Source: Niabella aurantiaca DSM 17617 (GTDB taxonomy: Bacteria; Bacteroidota; Bacteroidia; Chitinophagales; Chitinophagaceae). Taken from it: DNA of 64,000 nucleotides. The translations under genes were made by a program, and so were the position numbers. The DNA is taken from the NCBI RefSeq assembly GCF_000374125.1, contig NZ_KB893625.1, positions 124,001 to 188,000 of the forward strand, given 5' to 3'. Numbering within the stretch: the first letter of the stretch is position 1; the number at the start of each line of letters is the position of its first letter. Under the pieces are notes generated by a model. It saw nothing but the letters and a program-made list of their open reading frames with translations. It was not told the origin of the DNA and ran no database searches. Positions 37,676-57,021 of this stretch are shown in pieces.

Positions 37676-37690
37676 AAAAGTATGACATAT
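37676..37690 (-). promoter_or_regulatory. Candidate FadR-type operator upstream of the regulator gene
   Basis: Read on the - strand the site is ATATGTCATACTTTT, with the GT-N3-AC core of GntR/FadR operators. It lies 76 bases before the regulator start codon and shares ATATGTCRTAC with the site at 57007. A TACTTTTC on the same strand overlaps it and may be an imperfect -7 box. This suggests autoregulation. Confidence 0.5.
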
Positions 37691-37902
37691 TTAAGATTCG
37701 GATAGGGGATCTTCCTGTTTAAGTCTTCTGATCAATAGTTTATATGCCCCGCTTCGCACCCGGATATCGGGATAAAATTATTTAAAGGTTTTTAACAGGC
37801 CGCCCGGTAGAGCTCAAAAATCATATGGCCGGGTTTTACCGGCAGACAGCCCGGGCCAGTCATGTAAAGGCGTTATGCCGGTAATATGAATCAAAGGAAA
37901 GC

Positions 37903-37933
37903 ATAAAGCAGCTGTCTCCTGAAGCTGCTTTAT
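37903..37933. repeat. Perfect 11-base inverted repeat
   Basis: ATAAAGCAGCT (37903-37913) and AGCTGCTTTAT (37923-37933) are exact reverse complements around a 9-base loop. No long U-tract follows on either strand. It could be a regulatory hairpin, a weak bidirectional terminator insulating the divergent genes, or a protein-binding palindrome. Confidence 0.5.
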
Positions 37934-38186
37934 AGCGTATTGTCGTTCCGAGCTCCGGCCCGGACGGGTCTTTCAGCATCTAGGGGCGGATAACCATCTT
38001 TAGATGCCGGAACAATCCCGGGCTTTGCATAGCCATCCGGTTAAAAAACAGGGCTACCCCCGTATAATGTACACCTTGCACAGGTCCGTAGTGCAGAGCG
38101 GCCGGGAAGACAAAGCTGGACAATTTCAGTGTCCGTTAACGCGGTACGCATCATGGGGAGCGAAAAATTATTTTTTCAAAAATGAA

Positions 38187-38213
38187 TTTGTATTGAATAT
38201 AATTGTACATTTG
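38187..38213 (+). promoter_or_regulatory. Candidate promoter of the sialidase-like gene
   Basis: TACATTTG (38206-38213) matches the TAnnTTTG box. A TTTG (38187-38190) stands 15 bases before it, slightly shorter than the usual spacing. The predicted start of transcription falls inside the operator-like site at 38216-38230. The start codon is 48 bases after the box. Confidence 0.5.
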
Positions 38214-38215
38214 AA

Positions 38216-38230
38216 ATATGTAAGACTTAT
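38216..38230 (+). promoter_or_regulatory. Candidate FadR-type operator at the sialidase-like promoter
   Basis: ATATGTAAGACTTAT has the GT-N3-AC core and begins exactly 2 bases after the TACATTTG box. The promoter at 56997 shows the same arrangement. Repressor bound here would cover the transcription start. Confidence 0.5.
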
Positions 38231-38261
38231 TAATTTAATAACTATTCATACTTTATTTTTT

Positions 38262-39359
38262 ATGAGAAAGACGATCTGCTTGTTTCTATTTTCTCTGTTG
38301 CTGGCGCAAAGCGATGCGCAAACATTTGCCAATGTAAAGGTCCGCTACCCGTATCAGCTGCTTTTCTCAACCGCGCGCGATAAAGTCAACCAGTTTTGCA
38401 TCCCTTCCCTGGTCACTACCTCTAAGGGAACATTGATCGCAGTGGTTGATGCCCGCATCGATAAGCCGGGTGATGCCCCCAACAATATCGACCTGATGAT
38501 GCGCCGGAGTGTGGACAATGGAAAGACCTGGTCGGAGATCAAAACAATTGTGGATTTTCCCGGAAAGAATGCCGCCGCCGATGCCAGCATGGTGGTGGAC
38601 CGGTACACCGGGCTGATCTGGCTGGCCTATGATCGTTGTGAGGCGAACCCCCAGGGCCAGATGGGCCGCATCATTACCACGGAGCTCATCTATAGTAAGG
38701 ACGACGGTCTTACCTGGTCCAAACCCCTGAAGCTGGATCACCTGATTAAGAATAAAAAATTCTGGCTGCAGAATGCACCCGGCAGGGGGCTTTATACTAC
38801 TACAGGGATCATTGTATTTCCCATGTATGCCATTGAAGGGGAGTTTAACTATCCGGTGCGGAAACAAACGGTCCTGGTGTATTCCACCAATCACGGAAAT
38901 TCCTGGTCATTGAGCAACCCGGTTGGAGATAATAACGTAGAGGCCCAGATAGCGAATCTCATGGGGGGGAAAATTTTGTGCAATATGAGAAGGCCGGACG
39001 GGGAAGGGTATCGGCAGGTATCCACCACTTCGGACCTGGGCCAGACCTGGACCCCTGTTTATACGGATTCTGTACTGATCGATCCGGGTTGTATGGGCAG
39101 CCTGCTGGACTGGCATACCAATGAAAGAGCATTGATCCTTTTTTCAAATCCCGCCGATACGCTGATGCGCCGCAACCTTGTATTACGGGCCAGTAAGAAT
39201 GAAGGAAAGACCTGGTATAAGACTATTTCCATTCACCCCGGGTGGGCGGCTTATTCCTGTATGACGCAACTCGCCAATGGAAATATCGGGATGCTCTATG
39301 AGGCCGATCACCGGAGGGCCCTGCTCTATATTGAAATTCCCTATAAAGACCTGCTTTGA
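38262..39359 (+). CDS. GH33 sialidase-like protein with FRIP arginine replaced by cysteine
   Basis: Secreted six-bladed propeller protein of 365 residues from the ATG at 38262 (MRKTICLFLFSLLLAQSDAQ, a signal peptide). The frame extends upstream to 38004 but without protein-like sequence. At least five Asp-box motifs are present (SVDNGKTW, SKDDGLTW, STNHGNSW, TSDLGQTW, SKNEGKTW). The region IPSLVTTSKGTLIAVVDAR, then DKPGDAPNNID, is strongly GH33 sialidase-like. NMRRPDGEGYRQV, RRNLVLRAS and AYSCMTQLANGNIGMLYE correspond to the later arginines and the tyrosine nucleophile. However, the FRIP/YRIP motif reads FCIP: the first triad arginine is Cys46 (TGC at 38397). True sialidase activity is thus doubtful and specificity may be altered. 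It is the first gene of the large cluster. Confidence 0.9.
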   Translation: MRKTICLFLFSLLLAQSDAQTFANVKVRYPYQLLFSTARDKVNQFCIPSLVTTSKGTLIAVVDARIDKPGDAPNNIDLMMRRSVDNGKTWSEIKTIVDFPGKNAAADASMVVDRYTGLIWLAYDRCEANPQGQMGRIITTELIYSKDDGLTWSKPLKLDHLIKNKKFWLQNAPGRGLYTTTGIIVFPMYAIEGEFNYPVRKQTVLVYSTNHGNSWSLSNPVGDNNVEAQIANLMGGKILCNMRRPDGEGYRQVSTTSDLGQTWTPVYTDSVLIDPGCMGSLLDWHTNERALILFSNPADTLMRRNLVLRASKNEGKTWYKTISIHPGWAAYSCMTQLANGNIGMLYEADHRRALLYIEIPYKDLL

Positions 39360-39392
39360 TCTTGAAGCCGGTACGCGATAAATGATTGCCAT

Positions 39393-40529
39393 ATGAAAAG
39401 AAAAATGATCCTGTTGCTGGTCATGAAGCTACATGCCTTCCTCATCTGGGCACAACCGCCGGATCCCTTAAAGTGGTGGAACCCGGAAGAAAATACGTAC
39501 CCCGTGATCGAGGGGAGGAGATGGCCCAATCATGAAATGAAATCCTTTTATAGCAGGTTACCGGCCCGTGCTGAAAAGCTGGTCAGAACACCGGTATGGG
39601 GCCTGTCGCGGAATGCGGCCGGACTGATCATCCGGTTTAAAACGAATGCAAAACAACTCACGGTCCGGTACGCGGTAACAAGCCGTTTGAATATGCCCCA
39701 TTTTTCTTCAACGGGCGCAAGCGGCCTCGACCTGTATTCCTTAAATGCAGAAGGCCGGTGGAACTGGTCACCGGGCGGGTTTTCCTTTGGCGATACCATT
39801 ACCTACCGGTACGATCTTAGCGGTAACGAGGGCGATCCCCAACGTGTTTTTGTACTCTATTTGCCCACCTACAATACCGTTAAATGGCTCCGGATCGGCG
39901 TGCCCCGGGAGGCGTCCTTTACACCGCTGGAAGCCCGGAAAGAGCGGCCGGTTATTGTTTACGGAACCTCTGTTACACAGGGCGCCTGCGCCTCAAGACC
40001 TGGTATGGCCTGGCCTTCGATTGTGGGTCGCCGGCTGAACTGGCCGTTCATCAACCTTGGCTTTTCGGGTAACGGTACTTTGGATAAAGAGATGATCGAT
40101 CTGATCAATGAAGTAGATGCCAAAGCGGTGATCCTCGATTGCGTGGCCAATTTGCTGATAAAAAAATATCCGCTGGCAGAAGTGAAAAAAAGGATCATGG
40201 AATCGGTAAAAAGCATCCGGTCCAAACACCCGTTGACCCCGGTGCTTTTGGCGGCTTTCCCCGGCATTCATCCGGACCGGCTGGATAAAAAATGGGGGGC
40301 AGAAGTGGCGGAAATAAACCAGACCCTGAACGAAGCCTATGCGCTCCTTAAAAAACAGGGCGTCAAAAATCTATACCTGCTCACGGCCGGTGAAATGCAT
40401 ATGGGTTTTGAGGATACCGTAGATTATGCGCATGCAACAGACCTGGGGTTGCTGCATTATGCGCAGGCATTTGAAAAGGCGCTGCGTTCGATATTTAACA
40501 AACCAGCCGGTTACCTGGCTGCCGACTGA
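39393..40529 (+). CDS. Secreted SGNH/GDSL-type esterase
   Basis: Predicted exported hydrolase of 378 residues with a short signal peptide (LLLVMKLHAFLIWAQ). An N-terminal beta-domain (about 45-185) precedes the SGNH core. Block I is VYGTSVTQGACASRPG with the serine of GTS as candidate nucleophile. Block II is LGFSGNGTLDKEM, and the Asp-His pair is in DYAHATDLG. The RPGM stretch and the N-terminal domain mark it as a paralogue of the enzyme at 25601. It lies 33 bases after the sialidase-like gene and may remove O-acyl groups from the same substrate, as sialate O-acetylesterases do. Confidence 0.87.
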   Translation: MKRKMILLLVMKLHAFLIWAQPPDPLKWWNPEENTYPVIEGRRWPNHEMKSFYSRLPARAEKLVRTPVWGLSRNAAGLIIRFKTNAKQLTVRYAVTSRLNMPHFSSTGASGLDLYSLNAEGRWNWSPGGFSFGDTITYRYDLSGNEGDPQRVFVLYLPTYNTVKWLRIGVPREASFTPLEARKERPVIVYGTSVTQGACASRPGMAWPSIVGRRLNWPFINLGFSGNGTLDKEMIDLINEVDAKAVILDCVANLLIKKYPLAEVKKRIMESVKSIRSKHPLTPVLLAAFPGIHPDRLDKKWGAEVAEINQTLNEAYALLKKQGVKNLYLLTAGEMHMGFEDTVDYAHATDLGLLHYAQAFEKALRSIFNKPAGYLAAD

Positions 40530-40629
40530 TAAAAATTTACAGCATGTTTTCTTCCGGTAAAGGATTGGCACTTCTATCGATTTTGAAGGTACATGCAATA
40601 ACGGATTATAAAAATAAAAACAAATACTC

Positions 40630-41496
40630 ATGAAATCTCAGAAACTGGAAGGTGTCATTATTGCAATGCCTACCCCCTTATTGGAAAATGAGGACATTGA
40701 CATTCAATCCTTACACGGGTTGATTGATTATTGCGTAGACGAAGGGGCGAACGGCATCATGCTGGCGGGAACAATGGGAGAGGGACCGGCCATGATCGAT
40801 TCTCAAAAATACCTGCTGATTGAAGCAGCTATGGAGCATACCAAAGGAAGGGTGCCCATTTTGGCAACGGTTCCCTGCGCGTCTACCCGCAGGTGTCTCA
40901 AAGATGTGGAGGTGGCCAATCAGGCGAAGGTCGACTATATTGTCTGCACGTCTCCCTTTTATTACAAATATCCGGATCCCCAGAGTTTGATTGATCACCT
41001 TACCCGGATTGCCGAAAATACGGATGTGCCCATGATATTTTATAACGCTTCGGGATTTACCAATAATCCCGTAGATGTAGACACGATGGAAACGATCTTA
41101 AATATGGAAAAGGTGCGGGGCGTTAAGGATTCCAGTGCTAATTTCACCAATTTTGTAGAGCTGCTGCGGCGTTATCCGGATCGCTCAGACCGGCCCGGAT
41201 GCATCATGCAGGGAGACGAGTCCGTATTTGATATCAGTTTGCTTATGGGAGCGGATGGTGTGGTATCCGGCGGAGGAATTACGTCGATCAAACTCCTGCT
41301 GGAATTATACAGTGCCGGCTCCGCTGGCGATAAAGGCCGGGCCATTGAATGCCAGCGGTTATTTTACCGGCATCTTTCAGAACTGTTAATGCCGAACCCG
41401 CAACGTAACTGGATGTTCAATATCAAGAAAAAATTATCCAGTATGGGCGTGATTCCGAATGCTTTTGCCACAGCGCCTTTTATGATGAACTCCTGA
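40630..41496 (+). CDS. DHDPS/N-acetylneuraminate lyase-family aldolase (first copy)
   Basis: Pyruvate-dependent class I aldolase of 288 residues with a TIM barrel. The dihydrodipicolinate synthase-family motif LAGTMGEG, the catalytic tyrosine Tyr138 in FYNASG and the Schiff-base Lys166 in GVKDSS are all present. In catabolic clusters such enzymes cleave 2-keto-3-deoxy sugar acids or nonulosonates to pyruvate and an aldehyde. It lacks any lysine-biosynthesis neighbour, so a degradative role is likely. It differs clearly from the second copy at 46847, so the two probably act on different compounds. Confidence 0.9.
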   Translation: MKSQKLEGVIIAMPTPLLENEDIDIQSLHGLIDYCVDEGANGIMLAGTMGEGPAMIDSQKYLLIEAAMEHTKGRVPILATVPCASTRRCLKDVEVANQAKVDYIVCTSPFYYKYPDPQSLIDHLTRIAENTDVPMIFYNASGFTNNPVDVDTMETILNMEKVRGVKDSSANFTNFVELLRRYPDRSDRPGCIMQGDESVFDISLLMGADGVVSGGGITSIKLLLELYSAGSAGDKGRAIECQRLFYRHLSELLMPNPQRNWMFNIKKKLSSMGVIPNAFATAPFMMNS

Positions 41497-41503
41497 CGGA
41501 AAA

Positions 41504-41523
41504 GCTGCTCAGGAATGAGCAGC
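41504..41523 (+). repeat. Hairpin with GGAA tetraloop between the aldolase and kelch genes
   Basis: GCTGCTCA and TGAGCAGC are exact reverse complements around GGAA, a GNRA-type loop. It begins 8 bases after the aldolase stop. ATAATTT follows, not a U-run, so an RNA-stability or processing element is as likely as a terminator. Confidence 0.5.
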
Positions 41524-41568
41524 ATAATTTAGAAGTTAAAAACTAAAAAGAACCCAGTCAAATAGCTA

Positions 41569-42720
41569 ATGGTAAGTAAATGTCATAAACTGCTTCCGGT
41601 ACTGATGGTACTTGCTCCTCATTTTACCGTTCAGCAAAGTGCGGTGTTAACGGATACATTTCTATTTCAAAGGGCAAAATATATAAAACCATATGTGATG
41701 GAGGAAAAGCCAACTACCGCCGAAGTACAAAAAGCGGCATCCGGCGAAGGCGGGGCAGATGCATACAACAAGTCCACTGACCAGGACCGGCAACCCGGGA
41801 CGATGCCTGCTGCCGGCTTTACGGTTACTGAGGGCATCGAACTTCCCCCGCAATTGAAGCGTGGGGGGCATATCGGCGGAACCATCGGCGGGAAGGCCGT
41901 TGTAGTGGGCGGAACAGATTGGAATGATACAAAAACAGTTAAACACTGGTTGCAGAATGCAGCGGTGTTCGATCGTGATAAATGGGTACCGGGGCCTTCA
42001 TTACCCGGTCCGCTGGCCTATGCCATGTATGGATCCGATCCTACCGGGATCTATGTTGCAGGCGGCACGCCCGATGGAACGGTTTCGTCCCGCTCGGTGT
42101 ACCGGTTGCATTCCTTGGCCCCGGGTGCAGGCTGGGAATTGCTTCCTCCCCTGCCCGAAGCGTTAAGCTATGGTTCGGGAGCCATGTTAAATGGAAAATT
42201 CTATGTTGCCTGCGGTACCAATGGCCGGGAGAAGAGCAATCATATGTGGGTTTTGGATACCCGGAGCACTGGTACGCCGGCGTGGAAAAAATGCCCGCCG
42301 GTACCCGGACCGGCAAGGACCCTTTCTTTGCTCGTTGCTGATGGAAAGTACCTGTATTTACTGGGCGGGCTGCGTCATGAAGAACCGCTTACGGTCCTGA
42401 AAGATGCCTACCGGTATGATACCGGGAATGGTACCTGGGAGCAACTGCGGGACCTTCCGTTGGAAGGGTACGCATGGGCAGGGCAGCCTGTAGATGCAGG
42501 TCATCTCCTTATTACAGGAAGGGCATACGGAAAAATTGATACAGGCATCTGGTTACTTCGTTTAAAGGATATGTCGATGGAAAAGATCGGGGAAGCCGTG
42601 GGGCCGGCCACTACCGCTCCACTGATTAAAATAAATAATAAACAATGGTGGCTGGTTGGCGGTGAGCCGGATGCCAATAAGAACAGGACCGGGAAGGTCA
42701 CCATTATTACCTGTAAGTAG
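41569..42720 (+). CDS. Kelch-repeat protein, NanM-like (N-acetylneuraminate epimerase-like)
   Basis: Predicted beta-propeller of 383 residues. The N-terminus (LLPVLMVLAPHFTV) may be an export signal. A low-complexity linker (about 45-85) leads to kelch-type repeats with paired glycines and W/Y: IGGKAVVVGGTDWND, GIYVAGGTPDGTVS, GKFYVACGTNGREK, KYLYLLGGLRHEE and KQWWLVGGEPD. Periplasmic NanM, a sialic acid mutarotase, has this architecture. Next to a sialidase-like gene and an NAL-family aldolase, a mutarotase or sugar-acid isomerase role is plausible. I cannot confirm the catalytic residues. Confidence 0.75.
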   Translation: MVSKCHKLLPVLMVLAPHFTVQQSAVLTDTFLFQRAKYIKPYVMEEKPTTAEVQKAASGEGGADAYNKSTDQDRQPGTMPAAGFTVTEGIELPPQLKRGGHIGGTIGGKAVVVGGTDWNDTKTVKHWLQNAAVFDRDKWVPGPSLPGPLAYAMYGSDPTGIYVAGGTPDGTVSSRSVYRLHSLAPGAGWELLPPLPEALSYGSGAMLNGKFYVACGTNGREKSNHMWVLDTRSTGTPAWKKCPPVPGPARTLSLLVADGKYLYLLGGLRHEEPLTVLKDAYRYDTGNGTWEQLRDLPLEGYAWAGQPVDAGHLLITGRAYGKIDTGIWLLRLKDMSMEKIGEAVGPATTAPLIKINNKQWWLVGGEPDANKNRTGKVTIITCK

Positions 42721-42758
42721 CAGAAGGCTGATGAACCGGGCCGTTATATTAAAAATAG

Positions 42759-43760
42759 TTGATGATACGGAACTTTAAAATATATCTATGGCTGTTGGTT
42801 TTGACGGGTGTGGGGCTGAACGGCAGCGCAGAGGATTTAAAGCCCGGGGAATATCTGCCCGGTGCGGTTTTGAAAGCTGCCGGGGGCTGCCCCGTACCCT
42901 CTCAGGAACAGATCCGCGCATTTTGGAAAAGAACGCTTACCGGGCTTTCCAGGGTGCCTGTAGCAGCACAGGTGAAAAAACTAAAGGACTCATTGCCCTA
43001 TCAGGTATTTGCCATCACAGTACAAAGTCTGGACAGGATCCGTATCGCAGGGTATTTATCGGTTCCACGGCAGCAATCTGCAAAGCATGCCGGCTTTCCG
43101 GTGATCGTAAGTGCATCGGGTTACAGCGGCGATCAGGGCGTTCAGCTAAAAGAGTGTCTGAGAGGATATGCAATTTTGCAGGTATATCCCCGGGGGCAGG
43201 GCCCCTCTGAAAAATACTGGAAACCGGATGGTGATAAACTGTCCACGCATCTCAATACACCCGACGAAGCTTATTACCGGGGAGGGTATGCTGATGTGAT
43301 CCGGATGATCGATTATGTGGTTTCCAGGCCGGATATTGACAGCAGCCATATTGCTATGGTCAGTTCCAGTCAGGGTGGAGGTATTGCCCTGGCCGTGGCC
43401 GCGCTGGACCATCGCATCAAAGCGGTGGTGGCCCATGTCCCTTTTCTTTGTAATTTTCGCATGGCCGCTGCTATGCCGTCGCTGGTAAAGGCACTGCTGG
43501 ACCGGTCGCACAACAATAACGAACGGAGTTTGGCAACCCTGGATTATTTTGACCCCTTGCAGCTGGCAGACCGGATACAGATCCCGGTATTGATGAGCGC
43601 GGGTGGTGAGGACAAAACCTGCCCGATGGCTACCATTCAATCGGTATATGACCGGATCAGGAGCCGGAAGGAATTAAAGATCTATCCTGGTTTGAAGCAT
43701 GAGCCCAGCCGGGATTTTTACGAGCGCTGGTGGCCCTGGTTAAAAAGTAATTTTGTATAA
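42759..43760 (+). CDS. Acetylxylan esterase-like alpha/beta hydrolase (AXE1/CE7 type)
   Basis: Exported esterase of 333 residues with a signal peptide (IYLWLLVLTGVGLNGSA). The alpha/beta hydrolase fold shows YPRGQG, the nucleophile elbow SSSQGG with Ser204, the acid in SAGGEDKTCP and the base histidine in YPGLKHEPS. RGQ, SQGG and HE match carbohydrate esterase family 7, which deacetylates sugars and small acetylated molecules. It is the third candidate deacylating enzyme in this cluster, so the substrate is probably multiply acylated. Confidence 0.83.
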   Translation: MMIRNFKIYLWLLVLTGVGLNGSAEDLKPGEYLPGAVLKAAGGCPVPSQEQIRAFWKRTLTGLSRVPVAAQVKKLKDSLPYQVFAITVQSLDRIRIAGYLSVPRQQSAKHAGFPVIVSASGYSGDQGVQLKECLRGYAILQVYPRGQGPSEKYWKPDGDKLSTHLNTPDEAYYRGGYADVIRMIDYVVSRPDIDSSHIAMVSSSQGGGIALAVAALDHRIKAVVAHVPFLCNFRMAAAMPSLVKALLDRSHNNNERSLATLDYFDPLQLADRIQIPVLMSAGGEDKTCPMATIQSVYDRIRSRKELKIYPGLKHEPSRDFYERWWPWLKSNFV

Positions 43761-43901
43761 CATTCATCAGGGATCCATCCCTGTTCAAGAAGCAGGTAGT
43801 CGTGAAAGTAAATAAAAATAGGCCGGTCGATTCCTTTCATTCCAACGGGATGGGCCGTCAACAAATGACCCAACCATTATTTCAAATCGTATCAATTTTT
43901 G

Positions 43902-44900
43902 ATGCTGCGACGCTCAGCTGCAGCAATAAATACAATGAAGCAGCATATGGACGATAGGATAGAGATCTGCTCGGATGCGCCAGGTCTCCACGTGGTGATC
44001 CTTGCAGGTGTGCATGGCGATGAATATGAACCCATGCTTGCCGCTTCGGAGCTGGCACAGCGTCTGCCGGAACTGCTGGTTGCTGGAAAAGTGACGGTAG
44101 TGCCTGTTGTGAATCAAAGCGCCTACGGCCTGGCCGGCAGGTGCGGTGCCGATCAGCTGGACCTGGCCAGGATCTGCCCGGGTAAACCGGACGGATCGAT
44201 TTCTGAAAAGGCAGCTTTTCGCATCAGCTCGCTGGTCAGGACAGCAGACTATCTGGTAGATATGCATACCGGAGGAATGGTACATGATATCTGCCCCATG
44301 GCGGGATATTTGTTACACCCGGATGCCGGCATTCTGGAAAAGCAAAAGCGAATGGCCCTGATGTTCAGCATGCCTGTTATCTGGGGTACGGATCCACTAC
44401 CCAACGGAAGGACGCTTTCCGTGGCGCGGGACGCAAATATCCCGGCGGTATACCTGGAATATGGCGGCGGCAGCGGGCTCAGAAAAGAAGTAATTACAAA
44501 ATACCTGGAGGGAGTGCTGAATTTATTGCGGGATCTGAAAATGATTGCAGGTGCGGCGGTTGTTCCACCCGTTGAAAAGATCTTTTGGGTGGAAGACTTT
44601 AACAATGACAGCGGATCATTTCAGTCGAAAATGCCGTCGCCTGCCGGTGGAATATTCGTAACGGCACAGCAGCCGGGTGCAATGGTGAAAAAGGGCGCGC
44701 TCTTTGGAAAAGTAGCCGGTCCGGAAACCGGCGGTGTGGTGGAAGTAGCAGCCCCCTTTGACGGGATCGTACTGGCCGTGCGGGTAGCAGTAAGGGTGCA
44801 GCCGGGAGATGCGTTAGGGGCGATACTACCCGTAACGGAACCGGGCATGCGTACTATTCAGAAAGGTATGGAACATGCGGGCGATCCTTTAACAACGTAA
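43902..44900 (+). CDS. Succinylglutamate desuccinylase/aspartoacylase-family zinc deacylase
   Basis: Zinc-dependent amidohydrolase of about 332 residues. The metal-site motif LAGVHGDEYEP and the later DMHTGG are those of the AstE/AspA carboxypeptidase-like family. A C-terminal beta-rich part (GGIFVTAQQPGAMVKKGAL) resembles the biotinyl-like domain of DoeB-type deacetylases. I start at the ATG at 43902; later ATGs at 43935 and 43947 are possible and give a tighter N-terminus. Relatives remove N-acyl groups from amino acids or diamino acids. Here it may N-deacylate an amino-sugar-derived acid. No signal peptide, so it is cytoplasmic. Confidence 0.83.
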   Translation: MLRRSAAAINTMKQHMDDRIEICSDAPGLHVVILAGVHGDEYEPMLAASELAQRLPELLVAGKVTVVPVVNQSAYGLAGRCGADQLDLARICPGKPDGSISEKAAFRISSLVRTADYLVDMHTGGMVHDICPMAGYLLHPDAGILEKQKRMALMFSMPVIWGTDPLPNGRTLSVARDANIPAVYLEYGGGSGLRKEVITKYLEGVLNLLRDLKMIAGAAVVPPVEKIFWVEDFNNDSGSFQSKMPSPAGGIFVTAQQPGAMVKKGALFGKVAGPETGGVVEVAAPFDGIVLAVRVAVRVQPGDALGAILPVTEPGMRTIQKGMEHAGDPLTT

Positions 44901-44909
44901 TCAATAATT

Positions 44910-45725: not shown

Positions 45726-45726
45726 G

Positions 45727-47787: not shown

Positions 47788-48162
47788 ATGAAAAAGAAAA
47801 CAATCAACGGAGGCGGTGTCCCCAAAAGTTTTTTACCGTTTTCCCCGGCGATCCGGTCGGGAGACCATCTTTTTATTTCAGGGCAGGCCTCGGTAGATTC
47901 CGATGGAAATATAGTAAACGGAACCTTCGAAGAGGAATGCCGGCGGTCCTTTGAAAATTTCGGACGCATTCTGAAGGCTGCAGGCCTGGGTTTTGAGGAT
48001 GTAGTGCAGGTTCGCAATTATGTAGGCCGCCAGGAAGACCTGGCAGCGTTTAACCAGATCTATAAAGAATATTTTCAGGAACCCTATCCGGCCCGGACCA
48101 CCCTGATCGGCTGCCTGGGCAGTCTGCTGAAATTTGAAGTGGACGGCATCGCGGCGTTCTGA
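47788..48162 (+). CDS. RidA-family enamine/imine deaminase
   Basis: Small protein of 124 residues from the ATG at 47788 (MKKKTINGGGVPKS); a longer frame from 47689 overlaps the aldolase gene and is not used. SGQASVDSDGNI and the conserved arginine in PARTTLIG mark the RidA/YjgF/UK114 fold, and FEVDGIAAF ends it. RidA hydrolyses reactive 2-aminoacrylate-type intermediates released by PLP enzymes. The threonine synthase-like gene two positions upstream is the likely source. Its stop codon overlaps a possible start of the next gene (ATGA). Confidence 0.92.
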   Translation: MKKKTINGGGVPKSFLPFSPAIRSGDHLFISGQASVDSDGNIVNGTFEEECRRSFENFGRILKAAGLGFEDVVQVRNYVGRQEDLAAFNQIYKEYFQEPYPARTTLIGCLGSLLKFEVDGIAAF

Positions 48163-49373: not shown

Positions 49374-49452
49374 AACCGGATCGGGAAAGAACCGACTGCT
49401 TTTGCAGGAAAAGGGATCATCTGGAATTTGTTTGAATCAATAAAAAGGGATC

Positions 49453-50913
49453 ATGGCGTTGCGTGTTGCATTATTGGGAATTTATCATGAGTCCAATACG
49501 TTCATCAGCGAAAGGACGGAGCTGGTTGATTTTGAAAAAAGTCACTGGCTGACAGGGTCGCGTATTTGCCGGGAATACCGGGAGGCCTTTCATGAGATCG
49601 GGGGAATGATCGAGGTGCTGGATCAGGAGGGCGTGGAGCTGATCCCGGTGATGTATGCCGAAGCTACGCCCGGCGGTATCATAACCGCAGCAACCTATGA
49701 AACCTTGCTCCGGCAGATGTTGAAAGAGCTGGCTGCCGTTTTACCCGTGGACGGCTGCCTGGTGATACCGCATGGTGCGGGGGTCAGTGAGCAGTACCGG
49801 GATATGGATGGCCATTGGTTAAGCCTGCTCCGGGAGCAACTGGGTGGGCAGGTGCCCATCATCGGCACGATTGATCCCCATGCTAATGTAAGCCCGTTAA
49901 TGATCCGCTCTACCAATGCATTGATCGCCTATAAGACCAACCCGCATATCGATCAGCGGGAGCGGGGCAAAGAAGCCGCCAGGATGCTTGTTCAAATGCT
50001 CCGGCATCAGATCCGGCCCGTACAACAGTTGCTGCAGCTGCCACTGGCCATCAGTATTGAACAGCAATATGACCAGGTGGAGCCCTGCAAAAGTCTGCAC
50101 GTGCTGGCGGAAGCAATCAGTAACCGCCCGGGGATGCTCTCTGTCAGCATTGTACTGGGCTTTCCTTATGCGGATGTACCGGAAATGGGCACTTCAATTA
50201 TTGTGGTGAGCGATGATCAGTCCCAACAGGCCCAACTTTTTGCTGCGGAGCTGTACGATGACATCATCAGCCGCAAAGAAAAGTTTGTGGGAACAAAAAA
50301 CGACATCGCAGCGGTTTTACCGGGTATTGAAAAATATCCCCGGCCGGTATTGTTGCTGGACATGGGAGATAATATCGGGGCGGGCGCCCCGGGCAACAGC
50401 ACCTTTTTGTTGCGAGCCATAGAAGCTTTTGGAAAGTATACCTGCTTCATTTGCCTGCATGATCCGCAGATCGTCCGGCAGGCTGCTCAATACCAGCCGG
50501 GAGAAATCATTACCATAGAGCTTCCGGGGGGGCATGATCAGCGCATTGCCCATCGGGTAAAGCTTTTAAAAATGGCAGATGGTGCTTTTACGGAACCCGA
50601 TCCCCGGCATGGGGGGCAGGTGCATTACGATATGGGCCCGATCGCTCTTTTATCGACCGGAAGCGGGAGCATGATCCTGGTGACCTCGCTCCGCATTCCA
50701 CCGTTTAGCCTGAGACAGCTGACGGCCTTTGATATTGACCCGGCTTTATTTGACATCATTGTGGCTAAAGGGGTGAATGCCCCGATAGCGGCATACGCCC
50801 CGGTATGCCCCACGATCATACAGGTCAATACACCGGGTGTTACGCAGGCAGACATGACCTTATTTGATTTTCAGCACCGGCGCCGGCCCTTGTTTCCCTT
50901 CGAAATGATTTAA
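49453..50913 (+). CDS. M81-family metallohydrolase (MlrC-like)
   Basis: Metallohydrolase of 486 residues from peptidase family M81, whose founder MlrC degrades linearised microcystin. It opens RVALLGIYHESNTFI, with metal-site candidates in TIDPHANVSP and KTNPHIDQRERG, and shows LLDMGDNIGAGAPGNST, a family signature. Family members often sit in small-molecule catabolic operons and may hydrolyse amides unrelated to peptides. Here it lies 79 bases after the second BNR gene and before an SMP-30 lactonase. No signal peptide. I infer amide or lactam hydrolysis of a pathway intermediate. Confidence 0.88.
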   Translation: MALRVALLGIYHESNTFISERTELVDFEKSHWLTGSRICREYREAFHEIGGMIEVLDQEGVELIPVMYAEATPGGIITAATYETLLRQMLKELAAVLPVDGCLVIPHGAGVSEQYRDMDGHWLSLLREQLGGQVPIIGTIDPHANVSPLMIRSTNALIAYKTNPHIDQRERGKEAARMLVQMLRHQIRPVQQLLQLPLAISIEQQYDQVEPCKSLHVLAEAISNRPGMLSVSIVLGFPYADVPEMGTSIIVVSDDQSQQAQLFAAELYDDIISRKEKFVGTKNDIAAVLPGIEKYPRPVLLLDMGDNIGAGAPGNSTFLLRAIEAFGKYTCFICLHDPQIVRQAAQYQPGEIITIELPGGHDQRIAHRVKLLKMADGAFTEPDPRHGGQVHYDMGPIALLSTGSGSMILVTSLRIPPFSLRQLTAFDIDPALFDIIVAKGVNAPIAAYAPVCPTIIQVNTPGVTQADMTLFDFQHRRRPLFPFEMI

Positions 50914-50923
50914 AGGAGTACGC

Positions 50924-51751
50924 ATGAAATGGACTTCATATAAAACAGAGAAGATTGCAGACCTGCCTTTTTATACGGAGGGGCCGGCGGTAGACAGCCG
51001 GGAGGATTTTTATTGTACCACCCTCACAGGCGGCAGCATTGTACAATGGACAAAGGAACATACAATAAAGCACTGGGCCTCCTCTGCGGCGCCCAATGGC
51101 CAAATCATTGCCGGAAACGGCGATCATTTGGTTTGTGACGTCCGGCATCGATCCATTAACCGGTACAATGCGGCAGGGGAGCTGGTGCAAACCGAAATAG
51201 CAGGGACCTGCGCCGGTGTGGCCGTTTGCTGCCCGAACGATTTGATAATGGATGGCGCGGGGAATCTCTATTTTACAGATTCCGTCAGGGGCTCCGGAAA
51301 AGTTTTTTTTAAAGGGACGAATGGTGCTCAGGCAATACTGGCAGACAACCTGGATTATCCCAATGGGCTGGTGTTTTCGCCGGATGAAAAGATACTCTAC
51401 GTAGCAGAAAGCTACCGGAACCGGATCGTAAAAATAGATATGGATCGGCCGGGCTTTACCGCTGCCGGCATTAAAGATTTTGTGCGCCTGCCGTGCCACC
51501 CCTCCGGAAAAGCGGAAGACAACCTGCCCGATGGACTGGCATTGGACCCGGAGGGAAATATTTGGGTAGCTCATTATGGGATGCAGGCGGTTCACCGGTT
51601 TTCACCCGGAGGCGAATTGTTGACTTCGATTGATACCACGATACCCCTGACCAGCAACCTCGTTTTTGCAGACGTCCGCACCGTTTTTGTAACCGGGGGA
51701 TATGGTGAGCCCGGTCCTGGTGCGATCGTTAAAATAACCTTACAGCCGTAA
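50924..51751 (+). CDS. SMP-30/gluconolactonase-family lactonase
   Basis: Six-bladed propeller enzyme of 275 residues that would open sugar-acid lactones using a divalent metal. Metal ligands are visible: Glu19 in TEGPAVDS, the asparagine in CCPNDLIMD, the asparagine in DYPNGLVFSPDE and the aspartate in LPDGLALDPEGN. It has no signal peptide and begins 10 bases after the M81 gene. An aldose dehydrogenase (an SDR or aldo/keto reductase nearby) would supply the lactone. Confidence 0.9.
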   Translation: MKWTSYKTEKIADLPFYTEGPAVDSREDFYCTTLTGGSIVQWTKEHTIKHWASSAAPNGQIIAGNGDHLVCDVRHRSINRYNAAGELVQTEIAGTCAGVAVCCPNDLIMDGAGNLYFTDSVRGSGKVFFKGTNGAQAILADNLDYPNGLVFSPDEKILYVAESYRNRIVKIDMDRPGFTAAGIKDFVRLPCHPSGKAEDNLPDGLALDPEGNIWVAHYGMQAVHRFSPGGELLTSIDTTIPLTSNLVFADVRTVFVTGGYGEPGPGAIVKITLQP

Positions 51752-51767
51752 TATTAAATTGACAAGC

Positions 51768-52712
51768 ATGATGGAATACTCGAAAATACATGGCTATGAA
51801 ATTTCAAAACTGACGTTGGGCACAGTTGCCTTCGGACTGGACTACGGTATATCCAATACCGGCGCGAAGCCGGCAGGTTCCGATAGCTTTACCGTGATGT
51901 CCGAGGCCCTGAACGCGGGGATCAATAGCCTGGATACAGCCAGGGGTTACGGGAATGCTGAAGAATTGATCGGCGACTTTTTGGCAACCCGGAAGGAATA
52001 CAAAAAGACCACGATCACCACCAAGTTCCGGATCAGCAAAGAACACCTGATCAGCAAAGACCGGCTCTATAAGGAAGTATTTGACAGTGTGCGCGCATCC
52101 TTGCGTTACCTGAAATTACCGAAGCTTCCCTTTTGCCTGTTTCATATGCCGGAAGGATTGCCTGTGGAAGATATACTGAAGACGCTGCCCGGTCTTCTGA
52201 ACGATTTAAAACATGAAGCGTTGATTGACGTTTCAGGCGTGTCCGTTTATCATCCGGACCAGGTAGAATGGTTGATACCCTTCAGAGAGATACAGGCCTT
52301 GCAGGTGCCGATGAATCTGTTTGACAACCGGCTGATCCAAAAAGGCCTGCTGAAGCGGATGGCTTTGGAGAACAAGGCGGTGTTTATAAGAAGTGTTTTC
52401 CTCCAGGGTCTTTTTTTTATGGATCCGGATCAGTTAAAAGGAAACCTGACCAATGCCGCGCCGTATCTGGTCCGCTTACGGGAGCTTGCCGCTACAGCGG
52501 GCATGAGCGTTGCCCAGCTGGCTTTTTCTTATATAAAGGACCGGGAAGAAGTTACCAGTATCGTTTTTGGTGCGGTAACACCGGAGCAGGTAAGGCAGAA
52601 CATTCATTTTCTGCGCTACGGCCGCCTGGATGAGAATATTAAAAGCGCAATTGAAAAGGAGTTTGGCACGGTCCCGGAAAATATTTTGATGCCGGGGAGC
52701 TGGAAATATTAG
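51768..52712 (+). CDS. Aldo/keto reductase (first copy)
   Basis: NAD(P)H-linked reductase or dehydrogenase of about 314 residues with a TIM barrel. I start at the ATG at 51768 rather than the TTG at 51759. SKLTLGTVAFGLDYGIS begins the barrel, NSLDTARGYGNAEELIG holds the catalytic aspartate and tyrosine, and TSIVFGAVTPEQVRQN binds the cofactor. Its usual catalytic lysine region reads ITTKFRIS. It lies 16 bases after the lactonase. It is the L-fucose/galactose dehydrogenase type of AKR by gross pattern, which is consistent with a sugar to lactone step. Confidence 0.88.
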   Translation: MMEYSKIHGYEISKLTLGTVAFGLDYGISNTGAKPAGSDSFTVMSEALNAGINSLDTARGYGNAEELIGDFLATRKEYKKTTITTKFRISKEHLISKDRLYKEVFDSVRASLRYLKLPKLPFCLFHMPEGLPVEDILKTLPGLLNDLKHEALIDVSGVSVYHPDQVEWLIPFREIQALQVPMNLFDNRLIQKGLLKRMALENKAVFIRSVFLQGLFFMDPDQLKGNLTNAAPYLVRLRELAATAGMSVAQLAFSYIKDREEVTSIVFGAVTPEQVRQNIHFLRYGRLDENIKSAIEKEFGTVPENILMPGSWKY

Positions 52713-52732
52713 TATAGATAAAATCAAAAAAT

Positions 52733-53515
52733 ATGTTTCGAATTGATGGAAAAGTAGCCGTTGTAACCGGTGGCGCCGGTTTGTTTGGAAAACCCATATC
52801 CGGGGCGCTGGCAGAGGCGGGCGCCCATGTGGTCATTGCTTCCCGGGACCAAAAAAAATGTGATGCGTTTGCAGCGGGACTGAGGGAAAGCGGCCTCAGC
52901 GCTGTGGGAATGGCATTGGATCTTGCTTCGGAAGCTTCCATCCGGGAATTTGTGACCACTGTAGAACAACAATACGGCCGGATCGATATTCTGGTGAACA
53001 ATGCTGTTTCCAGGGAAGGTATAAAGGATCTGGAAGATCTGACCCGGGAGGATATCGAAAAAAGCGCATCCATCAATACTACGGGTTTAATGCTGTTAAC
53101 AAAGCATGTTGTAAAAGGGATGCGCGAAAGGGAAGACGGCAATATTATTAACGTCAGCTCCATACAGGGAGCCGTAGGCCCCCATTTTCCGGTTTATGGG
53201 AATACCGGTATGTCGAGCCCGGTCAATTATACGTATGATAAATGGGGAATGGTAGGCTTTACCAAATGGCTGGCCAACTATTACGGACGGTTCAATATAC
53301 GGGCCAATTGTATCAGTCCGGGCGGATACGGTCCCGGGCTGACCGATACGGAAGGGAAAAAGGAATTTATAGAGAACTACAAACGCTTAACGCCCCTGGG
53401 ACGGTTTGCGGATGACGACGATATCAAAGGTCCGGTTGTTTTTCTGGCGGCTCCGGCTTCCGCCTATATAACCGGGCAGAACCTGATGGTAGATGGGGGA
53501 TGGACGAATTGGTGA
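52733..53515 (+). CDS. Short-chain dehydrogenase/reductase (second copy)
   Basis: NAD(P)-dependent oxidoreductase of 260 residues. The cofactor motif VTGGAGLFGKPISG deviates slightly from TGxxxGIG, as in some sugar-acid SDRs. NNAV, INVSSIQG and the Y-T-Y-D-K catalytic pair (VNYTYDKWG) follow, and the C-terminus is TGQNLMVDGGWTNW. The GMSSPVNYTYDKWGMVGFTK stretch is distinctive and differs from the first SDR copy, so the two are not recent duplicates. It begins 20 bases after the aldo/keto reductase and 18 bases before the MFS gene. Confidence 0.9.
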   Translation: MFRIDGKVAVVTGGAGLFGKPISGALAEAGAHVVIASRDQKKCDAFAAGLRESGLSAVGMALDLASEASIREFVTTVEQQYGRIDILVNNAVSREGIKDLEDLTREDIEKSASINTTGLMLLTKHVVKGMREREDGNIINVSSIQGAVGPHFPVYGNTGMSSPVNYTYDKWGMVGFTKWLANYYGRFNIRANCISPGGYGPGLTDTEGKKEFIENYKRLTPLGRFADDDDIKGPVVFLAAPASAYITGQNLMVDGGWTNW

Positions 53516-53533
53516 TCATTCAATAAAAAAAAT

Positions 53534-54787
53534 ATGGAAATACGTTCAATATCCGGAAAGCCCGCGCTGCCTTCGGGCGCCTGGCTCATAGTTGTACTTT
53601 TATCGGTTGGCGGCTGCTTAAATTATTTGGACCGTATCGTTATTACAACCATGCGGGCTTCGATTATAGAAGCGATCCCGATGACCGAAGCGCAGTTTGG
53701 GCTGCTTACGTCCTCCTTTTTATGGACCTATGGTATCCTAAGCCCTTTTGCAGGGTATCTGGCCGATAAATTTAATCGGTCCAGGGTGATCTGCCTGAGT
53801 GTTTTTGTATGGTCGGCTGTTACGTGGATGACGGCCTACACGACCACTTTTTCCGAATTGCTGGCAACGCGTATATTGATGGGGGTCAGTGAAGCCTGCT
53901 TTATACCAGCTGCATTGGCGCTCATCGCCGACTACCACCGCAACAGGACCCGGTCGCTTGCCACGGGTATTTTAATGGTGGGGATCATGACGGGGTCCGG
54001 CTTTGGTTTTGCCGGTGGGTGGGTTGCCGAAAAATATTACTGGAATACCATTTTCGTTTATTTAGGTGTTTTTGGAATTGCCTATACGATATTCCTTTTT
54101 TTCACGCTAAAGGATCTCCGGTCTGATACCGGCGAAGCCGGTGAAGCAGCAGCGCCAAAAGAAAAAGTTAATTTCAGGGAGGCGATCACTTCCTTATTTC
54201 GCCTGCGGTCTTATATCTTTATTTTAATCGCCTGGGGGCTGCTGGGTGTTGTTGCCTGGCTGGTGGTTGGTTGGCTGCCCACGTATTTTTTGGAGAAATT
54301 CAGGCTTTCTGAAGGCATGGCCGGTCTATATGCGACCGCCTATTTTTATGCCGTAGCACTGGCCGGTTTGCTTTTAGGAGGTTACTGGTCTGACCGCTGG
54401 AGCCGCACCAACCCCAAAGGCCGCCTGCTGGTTCCCATCATCGGCATTATGATGGGCGCTCCCTGCATCTTTATGTCAAGTTACCTTAACGTCCTGCCCC
54501 TGGTGGTGATTTGTTTTATGGTATATGCCCTGAGCAAATCTTTTATTGATACGAATATGATGCCGATCCTTTGCCTGGTCGTCAACCGGCAATACCGCGC
54601 TACTGCTTATGGGATCCTGAATTTCCTGGCCTGCATTATCGGGGGTATCGGTATTTATGCGGGAGGGGCCCTCCGGGATATGCAGGTGAATATGGATCTG
54701 ATATTCCGGTTTGCCGCAGTGACCATGGTAATTGCATTGGTGCTGCTGCTGATGGTGAAAATAAAAGCAGAAGGTCCGCTGGAATAA
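53534..54787 (+). CDS. MFS transporter, anion:cation symporter group
   Basis: Inner-membrane permease of 417 residues with about 12 membrane segments. NYLDRIVITTMRASII opens it, PFAGYLADKFNRSRVICLS is the A-motif loop and SEACFIPAALALIADYHR is typical of the ACS family. It would import the acid released by the extracytoplasmic enzymes. This is the only inner-membrane carrier in the large cluster, and no SusC/D pair is seen there, so outer-membrane entry may use another locus or the SusC at 15103. Confidence 0.92.
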   Translation: MEIRSISGKPALPSGAWLIVVLLSVGGCLNYLDRIVITTMRASIIEAIPMTEAQFGLLTSSFLWTYGILSPFAGYLADKFNRSRVICLSVFVWSAVTWMTAYTTTFSELLATRILMGVSEACFIPAALALIADYHRNRTRSLATGILMVGIMTGSGFGFAGGWVAEKYYWNTIFVYLGVFGIAYTIFLFFTLKDLRSDTGEAGEAAAPKEKVNFREAITSLFRLRSYIFILIAWGLLGVVAWLVVGWLPTYFLEKFRLSEGMAGLYATAYFYAVALAGLLLGGYWSDRWSRTNPKGRLLVPIIGIMMGAPCIFMSSYLNVLPLVVICFMVYALSKSFIDTNMMPILCLVVNRQYRATAYGILNFLACIIGGIGIYAGGALRDMQVNMDLIFRFAAVTMVIALVLLLMVKIKAEGPLE

Positions 54788-54885
54788 AGCATAACACGTA
54801 AATTATTTTGTTTGTTGTGAGGAACCGGATGGAGAATGCTCATCCATCTGAATGTAAGGATCATCGTTATTCAATAAAGTAAAAA

Positions 54886-55779
54886 GTGGAAGCTTCTGCA
54901 TTTAATAAAACAATTGGCCCGATCGGACTGGGTTGTGTGACCTTTGGCCGGGAAATTGATCGGGAAGCGGCGTTCCGGCTGATGGACTTCTCTTTTAAGC
55001 AGGGCATCCGTTTTTTTGACACGGCGGCTTCCTATGGGGAAGGGCGATCCGAAGCTATCATCGGGAACTGGATGGCCCGGAATCCGGAATATAAAGGGAA
55101 AACAATGGTGGCCACAAAGCTGAAGCCTCCTTATGAACCCACTCAAATGCTTCGATGCCTGGATGAAAGTCTGGAGCATCTGGGTATGGAGACCATTGAC
55201 CTGTTGTACCTGCATTGCTGGGATGGCCGGGCAGAGAACCTGCAAACGCTGAAATGCCTGGAGGGGTTCATCCGGACCGGGAAAGTAAGATCTTTGGGCG
55301 CCAGTAATTTCAATGCGTTGCAGTTAGGAAAAGTGTTGCAGCTGCAGCTCGAAAACGGCTGGACGCCTTTTAGCTTTGCACAAAACAACCATAACCTCGC
55401 CGTCAGCGATATGAGCCGGGAGTGGTTGCAGCTATGCAGGCAGTACCGGCTCAGGGTTATAGGTTACAGCCCGCTGGGGGCGGGATTTCTGACAGGTAAA
55501 TACCTGCATGGAGTGATGAACGGTACCCGTTTCGATATCATTAAAGGCCATCAGGCGATCTATTTTAATGAGCGGTCGCAAAGGCGTTTGAAAAGATTGC
55601 AGGAACTTGCGGCTCAAACGGGTCTTTCCCCGGAGCTGCTTGCAATGGCCTGGGCCGTTCACCAAAAAGAGGTAGATTGTGTGCTGGTGGGCGGCCGGAC
55701 GGTTGCCCATATCGATAATGCGCTGCAGGCATTGCAATTTACCGATAGCGACCTGCTTTCCGGGCTGGAGTGCGATTAG
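54886..55779 (+). CDS. Aldo/keto reductase (second copy), GTG start
   Basis: NAD(P)H-linked oxidoreductase of 297 residues. Translation must start at GTG 54886, because an in-frame TAA lies two codons upstream and the next ATG is well inside the barrel. TIGPIGLGCVTFGRE, RFFDTAASYGEGRSEAIIG (catalytic Asp and Tyr), MVATKLK (catalytic Lys) and VDCVLVGGRTVAHIDNA are all in place. It differs from the first copy in length and motif detail. It probably reduces an aldehyde formed by one of the aldolases. Confidence 0.9.
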   Translation: MEASAFNKTIGPIGLGCVTFGREIDREAAFRLMDFSFKQGIRFFDTAASYGEGRSEAIIGNWMARNPEYKGKTMVATKLKPPYEPTQMLRCLDESLEHLGMETIDLLYLHCWDGRAENLQTLKCLEGFIRTGKVRSLGASNFNALQLGKVLQLQLENGWTPFSFAQNNHNLAVSDMSREWLQLCRQYRLRVIGYSPLGAGFLTGKYLHGVMNGTRFDIIKGHQAIYFNERSQRRLKRLQELAAQTGLSPELLAMAWAVHQKEVDCVLVGGRTVAHIDNALQALQFTDSDLLSGLECD

Positions 55780-55811
55780 CCGTTAGGGGCAAACCATAAA
55801 AATGAAGGAAT

Positions 55812-56795
55812 ATGAAAATAGTAATCCTGGATGGATATACGTTAAACCCGGGAGACCTGAGCTGGGATGAAATGAATGCCCTCGGCGAGGTGATCGTATA
55901 TGACCGGACCCCATTGGAGAAAATTGTGGAGCGGGCTGCGGATGCGTCTGTTGTACTGACCAATAAAACGCCTTTAAACGCTGAGACGATCGAGCAGCTG
56001 CCTGCTTTACAATTTATCGGGGTACTTGCCACAGGTTATAATGTGATCGATATACAGGCGGCTGCTAAAAGGGGGATCCTGGTTGCCAACGTACCCGGCT
56101 ATGGAACCGCCTCGGTGGCACAGCTAACCTTTGCCTTACTGCTGACGCTTTGCCAACGGGTGCAAAAACACAGCGACGGCGTAAAAGAAGGCCGGTGGAG
56201 CCGGTCGCCGGATTGGTGCTACTGGGATTATCCGCTGGTGGAGCTTTCCGGAAAAACAATGGGCATTATCGGTTTGGGTACGATCGGTAAAAACGTGGCA
56301 GACATTGCCCGAGCCTTTGGCATGCAGGTAGTGGCAATGAGCAGGGAAGGCGGCGGGGCCTCTGCCCCGGATGGTGTGGAGCGGGCGCCGCTAAAAGAAC
56401 TATTGGCGGCAAGTGATGTGGTGTCCGTTCATTGTCCGCTGGTGCCGGAAACAAAAGACCTGATCAATAAAGAGCGGCTGGGCTATATGAAGCCTTCAGC
56501 TTTTCTCATCAATACCTCCAGGGGGCCTGTGATCAACGAAGAGGACCTGGCAGCTGCGCTGAACCGTGATCAGATTGCCGGCGCCGGTCTGGATGTGTTG
56601 TCCGTGGAGCCGCCTCAAAAGGAGCATCCGCTTTATACGGCAAAGAACTGCATCCTTACACCGCATATCGGCTGGGCCACCCGGGAAGCCCGGCTGCGAC
56701 TGCTGGAGACGGCGATCTTAAATATTCAGGGGTTTGTCAATGGCCGGCCCGTGAACATTGTGAACGCAGACGGTCTGATCATGGGCCGGTATTGA
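55812..56795 (+). CDS. D-2-hydroxyacid dehydrogenase (glycerate dehydrogenase/hydroxypyruvate reductase-like)
   Basis: NAD(P)-dependent enzyme of 327 residues. Rossmann motif GLGTIGKNV (about 155-163), catalytic arginine in NTSRGPVI, glutamate in VEPPQ and histidine in TPHIGWAT are visible. The segment CYWDYPLVELSGKTMG before the Rossmann fold is typical of glycerate dehydrogenases. It likely reduces hydroxypyruvate to D-glycerate, which the kinase at 35684 would phosphorylate. It is the last gene before the second operator-promoter. Confidence 0.92.
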   Translation: MKIVILDGYTLNPGDLSWDEMNALGEVIVYDRTPLEKIVERAADASVVLTNKTPLNAETIEQLPALQFIGVLATGYNVIDIQAAAKRGILVANVPGYGTASVAQLTFALLLTLCQRVQKHSDGVKEGRWSRSPDWCYWDYPLVELSGKTMGIIGLGTIGKNVADIARAFGMQVVAMSREGGGASAPDGVERAPLKELLAASDVVSVHCPLVPETKDLINKERLGYMKPSAFLINTSRGPVINEEDLAAALNRDQIAGAGLDVLSVEPPQKEHPLYTAKNCILTPHIGWATREARLRLLETAILNIQGFVNGRPVNIVNADGLIMGRY

Positions 56796-56860
56796 TTTTA
56801 TTGAAATGCGGATCCTTTTAAATGATCGGTGAAACACGCCCGTGGCCAGTACTTAGGTTA

Positions 56861-56880
56861 TTGTCCGCACTGCCGGGCAA
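56861..56880 (+). terminator. Weak candidate terminator after the dehydrogenase gene
   Basis: TTGTCCG and CGGGCAA pair with one G-T wobble around a short loop, followed by TAAATTTAT. The stem is moderate and the U-run interrupted, so termination may be partial before the next promoter at 56977-57004. Confidence 0.35.
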
Positions 56881-56976
56881 TAAATTTATAACCATCATTT
56901 TGATACCGGTTCATGATTCAATAAAGGGCTGTCCGGGTCCTGCATCTTTTCGAAAAAAAAATTAAAGGAATATTTT

Positions 56977-57004
56977 TTTGTTTCCGGGATTCCTTCTATA
57001 TTTG
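56977..57004 (+). promoter_or_regulatory. Candidate promoter of the aminotransferase operon
   Basis: TATATTTG (56997-57004) matches TAnnTTTG, with TTTG at 56977-56980 and a 16-base spacer. The layout copies the promoter at 38187-38213 (15-base spacer, operator 2 bases downstream). The start codon is 57 bases after the box. Confidence 0.55.
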
Positions 57005-57006
57005 AC

Positions 57007-57021
57007 ATATGTCGTACATAT
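57007..57021 (+). promoter_or_regulatory. Candidate FadR-type operator at the aminotransferase promoter
   Basis: ATATGTCGTACATAT is a perfect inverted repeat (ATATGT, CGT, ACATAT) with the GT-N3-AC core. It starts 2 bases after the -7 box, overlapping the expected transcription start. It is the most symmetric of the three sites and could represent the consensus. Confidence 0.6.

Follow-up and report, generated by a model that had tools for sequence, protein, structure and literature searches.

What controls the aldolase/SusCD/sialidase-like gene cluster of Niabella aurantiaca DSM 17617? To address this question we examined a stretch of 64,000 nucleotides (nt) of contig NZ_KB893625.1 (positions 124,001 to 188,000), here called the window, in which a first-pass annotation had drawn attention to three 15-base sites sharing ATATGT-N3-AC. 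It had taken them for targets of one acid-sensing, FadR-type regulator that represses both halves of the cluster. Inspection of the sequence confirmed all three sites with their positions and strands (Table 1; labels beginning with C, L and G are our own for contigs, loci and genomes). Both plus-strand sites begin exactly 2 nt after a TAnnTTTG box, with a TTTG 15 or 16 nt further upstream, and the third does precede the regulator gene. We consider it likely, with good confidence, that these sites belong to an autoregulated FadR/FCD repressor regulon of the cluster, the palindrome ATATGT-N3-ACATAT being the predicted operator.

How unusual is this arrangement of box and operator? Within the window the combined pattern TANNTTTGNNATATGTNNNAC, with up to two mismatches allowed, occurs only at the two plus-strand sites, and both are exact; 0.53 places are expected at two mismatches, and 10 of 100 shuffles reach two. 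Throughout the 5.93 Mb genome the pattern TTTGNNATATGTNNNACNTAT (TTTG-N2-ATATGT-N3-AC-N-TAT) has four exact places, against 0.014 expected from the base composition of the window, none with one mismatch and 11 with two. With two mismatches allowed the count, 15 places altogether, does not rise above background (14 in the reversed control). The four exact places are the two plus-strand sites of the window, the promoter of a SusC/SusD pair and the promoter of a decayed aminotransferase copy. Two of these seeded the pattern; the new evidence is therefore the other two. In each of the four a gap of 2 nt separates TAnnTTTG from the operator. The upstream TTTG lies 15, 16 and 17 nt from the box in three of the promoters, and 31 nt from it at the SusC promoter. 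The bare palindrome is found at three places in the genome and at none in the reversed control (about 0.45 expected). In 23 relatives TTTGNNATATGTNNNACNTAT has no exact place and 14 with one mismatch, against 25 in the reversed control.

Where do the additional sites lie? The SusC site is 136 nt 5' of the SusC start, and SusD follows SusC (L017 5473 and 8624). The other promoter is identical to that of the window aminotransferase at 44 of 55 positions. Behind it lie only C-terminal aminotransferase pieces, corresponding to residues 355–427 of the window protein and spread over three frames (tblastn E 4e-10), and for this reason we rejected it as a working target. A genome scan, one of the checks suggested by the first-pass annotation, thus yields three exact sites in or beside the cluster and one at a decayed cluster gene. 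For a second scan we built a symmetric matrix from 51 sites of relatives, none of them from N. aurantiaca itself, and applied it to eight segments of its genome (204 kb, 203,824 positions), some picked for holding sites or paralogs. The top five scores belong to the 57007 site (29.5 bits), the decayed copy (29.4), the 38216 site (23.8), the SusC site (22.5) and the 37676 site (16.8); the sixth-best position scores 10.7 bits.

Is the palindrome conserved together with the regulator? We searched 80 named homolog loci (1.436 Mb, the best 80 of 198) from Niabella, Flavisolibacter, Parapedobacter, Pedobacter, Sphingobacterium, Cyclobacterium, Capnocytophaga, Dyadobacter and others. Of these, 33 (L150–L182) were picked by rank as close; they coincide with the clade of the regulator in its tree, its own row apart. 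For the same-genus genomes considered below, a close ortholog has at least 55% identity, and in the nine others the best match has at most 49%. The 80 loci hold 33 exact and 44 one-mismatch palindromes, distributed over 46 loci, against 0 and 5 in four loci for the reversed control. Near the 33 closest orthologs no exact 6-3-6 palindrome is commoner than ATATGT-N3-ACATAT (30 sites, 17 loci); the runner-up is a T/A run (8 sites, 7 loci), and all others occur in at most four loci. In the 400 bp 5' of the regulator a site with at most one mismatch is present at 23 of the 33 close loci, and one with at most two at 29 (controls 0 and 2). Because most close orthologs carry a better site before the regulator, the weak 37676 site looks like a worn form of a widely retained auto-operator.

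Within the 33 close loci, 48 of 51 sites lie no more than 500 bp 5' of a regulator, SusC, aldolase, BNR or AspA homolog; ten of the 51 were flagged mechanically as falling within a reading frame of at least 200 codons, and some of these frames may be spurious. Phylogenetic footprinting, likewise proposed at first pass, thus places the palindrome as top motif near the close orthologs, before the regulator and before SusC, aldolase and sialidase-like genes. A TAnnTTTG box ends 0–8 nt upstream of 23 of the 77 sites in the 80 loci (16 of 1232 shifted controls), eight of them at 2 nt. A 2 nt spacing as a universal rule was rejected, since at those sites of relatives that have a box the distance ranges between 0 and 7 nt; a constant 2 nt is a trait of the N. 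aurantiaca genome.

The same association is seen within the genus. The exact palindrome is present in seven of the eight genomes with a close ortholog (N. aurantiaca included) and in none of the nine without (Fisher p 4e-4, relatedness ignored). The exception, G006, has two one-mismatch sites. Altogether the 16 same-genus relatives contain seven exact palindromes, against three in the reversed control. The letters of operator 2 recur identically, in gene direction, in G005 and G010, and as the reverse complement in G008, G015 and G016. In seven same-genus genomes an orthologous gene run (aldolase, AspA, SDR, PALP, RidA, MlrC, lactonase, AKR, SDR, aminotransferase, MFS; cut by a contig end in G016) adjoins the regulator ortholog, with the palindrome or its one-mismatch form nearby. 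Over ten genomes (the eight of the genus with G058 and G152) 15 of 17 exact sites lie within 30 kb of a close ortholog, a limit set post hoc with one N. aurantiaca site at 29.7 kb. Treating the lone site of G060, located on a different contig, as distant gives 15 of 18.

What kind of protein would read these sites? The regulator has an N-terminal GntR winged helix (PF00392, 54.2 bits against a cut-off of 27) and a C-terminal FCD domain (PF07729, 62 bits against 24.3) that is all-helical in the AlphaFold2 model (pLDDT 86.5). Foldseek matches this model to GntR/FCD regulators including NanR and FadR, at low TM-scores of about 0.28–0.57. The protein misses the NCBIfam cut-offs for NanR, its best-scoring model (96.2 bits against 260), LldR (77.6 against 311), PdhR (48.9 against 330), GlcC (47.5 against 301) and FadR (31 against 189). 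A glycerate kinase gene (35684-36838) is convergent with the regulator gene, and in L165, a metagenome-assembled genome of the Chitinophagaceae, homologs of glycerate kinase, phosphoenolpyruvate (PEP) synthase and aldolase are likewise near the regulator.

The palindrome is very probably the docking site of this protein, as predicted from sequence. We envisage that the regulator would bind ATATGT-N3-ACATAT as a dimer. In Flavobacterium psychrophilum TAnnTTTG is located at -12 to -5 (PMC9723704), and an operator beginning 2 nt past this -7-type box would cover roughly -2 to +13. Since it would thus overlap the start point, we argue for repression: the bound dimer would block RNA polymerase. The weaker copy upstream of the regulator gene would provide autoregulation. 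A small carboxylate-type ligand derived from the cluster substrate would release the regulator, whereupon three sets of genes would be expressed: the 18-gene run from 38262, the aminotransferase run beginning at 57062 and, just to the right of the window, the genes for SusC/SusD uptake. That the ligand is an acid, as the first-pass annotation had supposed, is a fair guess, plausible from the cluster enzymes and from the histidines of the FCD metal/ligand site, H154, H199 and H221, which are invariant across 35 aligned homologs. E150, H154 and H199 have the spacing of the DgoR ligand-pocket residues D146, H150 and H195, and H199 and H221 that of TM0439 H174 and H196; the TM0439 interval 134–174 is five residues shorter than 154–199 here (PMC7674646 for the DgoR and TM0439 residues).

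Might the regulator instead activate its targets, or play a mixed role? FadR-subfamily regulators can both repress and activate. CitO, for one, is an FCD activator (PMC4746285). On the other hand, in all four box-bearing promoters of N. aurantiaca the operator begins past the -7 box and would overlap the start point, which fits blocking, and we regard an activating or mixed role as unlikely.

Could the protein acting at these sites be another member of the same family? Three paralogous FCD regulators are encoded in the genome (C2:379758, C1:915486, C1:944308). At 43–47% identity to the regulator they might cross-bind, and one of them might be the main acting protein at what would still be operators. 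Near the 47 more distant homologs the top exact 6-3-6 palindrome is a sister motif, TTATGT-N3-ACATAA (20 sites, 16 loci; the runner-up, a T/A run, occurs in nine loci). Two of the three paralog loci of N. aurantiaca carry this sister motif (L065 10523 and L066 10242, near C2:379758 and C1:915486). In the regulator tree the clade of the regulator (34 rows, support 100/99) has 17 rows with exact sites of the ATATGT class (A) only and none with the TTATGT class (T) only; on the other side (50 rows) there are 18 T-class and three A-class rows. These labels derive from exact sites only, so that 45 of the 84 rows have none and one has both, and the N. aurantiaca row was labelled by hand. Operator class follows the regulator tree, and we hold it quite improbable that a paralog is the main actor.

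Several residues of the regulator track the two classes. Residue 53 is A in 16 of 20 A-class rows and V in 17 of 18 T-class rows; residue 61 is F in 18 of 20 and L in 17 of 18; residue 72 is N in 17 of 20 and H or K in all 18. Positions 14 and 18 separate the classes likewise. Residue 53 presumably aligns with a DNA-contact threonine of E. coli FadR. Besides the sites described above, there are 11 other one-mismatch places in the genome, two of which we inspected by reading frame. One (C2:618983) falls inside an open reading frame. The other (C3:91195, L009 1501-1515) reads ATATGTTCTACATAA, intermediate between the A and T classes, and stands directly after TATCTTTG; it precedes a putative esterase-like gene and is possibly an extra regulon member.

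What weighs against a repressor regulon of this kind? The 11-base half-motif, allowing one mismatch, is found 43 times in the window against 43.4 expected. By itself it is therefore unconvincing, and we rejected it as a signal; what carries weight is the full arrangement of box and operator. We could assign no clear promoter box to the 37676 site, which is itself weak. Since ATATGTNNNACATAT with up to two mismatches is at background in the genome (194 places forward, 255 in the reversed control), this two-mismatch site has no meaning in isolation; what redeems it is conservation before the regulator in relatives and its high rank with the relatives-only matrix. Ten of the 33 close loci lack a site with at most one mismatch before the regulator, the best there having two mismatches in six and three or four in the other four, and one exact site of G005 is far from the regulator. 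Across 147 genomes of the family the bare palindrome shows no enrichment (40 places, spread over 26 genomes, against 83 places in the reversed control; totals counted by hand), and a lone palindrome in a genome therefore says little. Any homolog at E <= 1e-50 is present in 35 of the family genomes, and by hand count 11 of their 20 exact sites are no more than 30 kb away from it; most of the sites beyond that limit are in genomes with a distant homolog only. The palindrome is distinctive by placement, in that it crowds beside close orthologs. That the sites are a coincidence of AT-rich promoter sequence, an idea to which the background counts of the half-motif and of the bare palindrome lend some colour, is most improbable, as the full arrangement is rare in the genome, the sites concentrate beside the regulator across genera, and the footprinting speaks against chance for operators 1 and 2.

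How does the proposed repressor regulon compare with known systems? Sites of the FadR subfamily are typically GT-N3-AC (PMC4494728), a trait that the cluster palindrome shares as judged from its letters and their conservation. Like the operators of FadR, DgoR, LldR, PdhR, GlcC and ExuR, it has GT and AC 3 nt apart with AT-rich flanks, and its sites lie with or beside the regulator gene as in the divergons of the subfamily (both PMC4494728). The proposed system is a fairly ordinary kind of gene switch, well supported, of a pattern already known. The palindrome differs from the general TKGT/ACMA boxes in its ATATGT half-site, its Bacteroidota host and its coupling to a TAnnTTTG promoter. E. coli NanR supplies the best-scoring NCBIfam model and one of the best fold matches, and N-acetylneuraminate-lyase-like (NAL-like) and sialidase-like genes are neighbours here; NanR, however, recognizes direct TGGTATAW repeats (PMC4494728), whereas the palindrome is inverted. 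E. coli DgoR, also an FCD protein, represses a sugar-acid pathway, and its inverted repeats overlap the promoter (PMC7674646); repression here is our inference, and the targets and host phylum differ. The available text of PMC4494728 counts no Bacteroidetes among 634 FadR-subfamily factors, and neither there nor in the available part of PMC3878776 did we find a Bacteroidota FCD operator; a literature search at the level of titles and opening lines of abstracts found no described FadR/FCD operator from the phylum.

Table 1. Sites, promoter boxes and genes of the putative regulon; positions are those of the window unless a contig is named.
Feature	Position	Strand	Remarks
Regulator-side site (weak auto-operator)	37676-37690	-	ATATGTCATACTTTT; two mismatches; 75 nt 5' of regulator ATG
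-33-type TTTG, operator 1 promoter	38187-38190	+	15 nt upstream of -7 box
-7-type box, operator 1 promoter	38206-38213	+	TACATTTG
Operator 1 (predicted)	38216-38230	+	ATATGTAAGACTTAT; starts 2 nt past -7 box
-33-type TTTG, operator 2 promoter	56977-56980	+	16 nt upstream of -7 box
-7-type box, operator 2 promoter	56997-57004	+	TATATTTG
Operator 2 (predicted)	57007-57021	+	ATATGTCGTACATAT; perfect 6-3-6 palindrome; starts 2 nt past -7 box
SusC/SusD promoter site	C1:191322-191336		3.3 kb right of window; exact TTTGNNATATGTNNNACNTAT match
Decayed-copy promoter site	C1:649936		L019 9896-10277 = C1 about 649896-650277; box and perfect operator retained
FadR-subfamily regulator (GntR winged helix-turn-helix and FCD)	36908-37600	-	230 aa; Pfam
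Putative 18-gene operon under operator 1	38262-56795	+	Pfam; all genes on + strand; operon status inferred
18-gene run, first half			BNR sialidase-like, GDSL esterase, DHDPS-family aldolase, kelch (NanM-like), AXE1 esterase, AspA/AstE, SDR, PALP, NAL-like aldolase
18-gene run, second half			RidA, BNR, MlrC/M81, SMP-30 lactonase, AKR, SDR, MFS, AKR, D-2-hydroxyacid dehydrogenase
Class-III aminotransferase (glutamate-1-semialdehyde aminomutase-like)	57062-58357	+	Aminotran_3, 210 bits; start codon chosen manually
PEP synthase, iron alcohol dehydrogenase (Fe-ADH), aldehyde dehydrogenase	58751-63781	+	Pfam/NCBIfam; gap of about 390 nt before PEP synthase

What might the controlled genes do? The class-III aminotransferase is the first gene downstream of operator 2, and the three genes behind it possibly continue the same transcription unit. 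The operon under operator 1 is unproven, because a sigma-70 scan, whose model is uninformative for Bacteroidota promoters, gave terminator-like matches on the plus strand within the long gene run. For the NAL-like aldolase the 25 PDB matches with E up to 1e-25 all bear the name of an N-acetylneuraminate or acylneuraminate lyase, and it stays below the NCBIfam cut-off (169 against 281 bits). PDB searches with SDR1, SDR2, PALP and AspA fixed no substrate. We hypothesize that the cluster enzymes would fit a phosphorylation-free route that starts from a sialic-acid-like or amino-sugar-acid compound and ends in pyruvate and glycerate. Such a route is suggested by the BNR sialidase-like protein, the GDSL esterase, the NanM-like kelch protein, the neuraminate-lyase-like aldolase, the SDRs and the lactonase, and also by the AspA/AstE deacylase, PALP, RidA, the second aldolase, PEP synthase, aldehyde dehydrogenase and the nearby glycerate kinase. 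The ong chitin-oxidation pathway has a deacetylase/pyridoxal phosphate (PLP)-deaminase/RidA logic in common with the cluster, and differs in its MurR/RpiR regulator and 2-keto-3-deoxygluconate kinase (PMC9537276).

Around the SusC/SusD pair (L017 3500-19012) are three sulfatases, an alpha-galactosidase-like protein, a fasciclin protein and another BNR protein. L017 1812-3458 encodes a 548-aa protein with no Pfam match at E <= 0.001, whose homologs (48–63% identity) are near the regulator in other Bacteroidota.

It is a tentative and rather doubtful extension that we have here the first reconstructed Bacteroidota family of FadR-type regulons, in which the ATATGT and TTATGT classes would be tracked by residues 53, 61 and 72 (A/F/N against V/L/H or K) and the A-class targets would form an undescribed phosphorylation-free route. 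Oxidation, lactone opening, deacylation, PLP/RidA deamination and aldol cleavage would take a sialic-acid-like or amino-sugar-acid substrate to pyruvate and glycerate.

What does the finding mean for the biology of these bacteria? A motif noticed by eye has become a testable operator–regulator pair for a cluster that is met repeatedly in Bacteroidota and has no substrate assigned to it. With a handful of residues tracking them, the two sister operator classes are a ready case for studies of DNA recognition in the FadR subfamily, and they lie in a phylum absent from the comparative study PMC4494728, as far as its available text goes. The regulator, its predicted operator and the target promoters together offer a handle for finding the substrate of the cluster.

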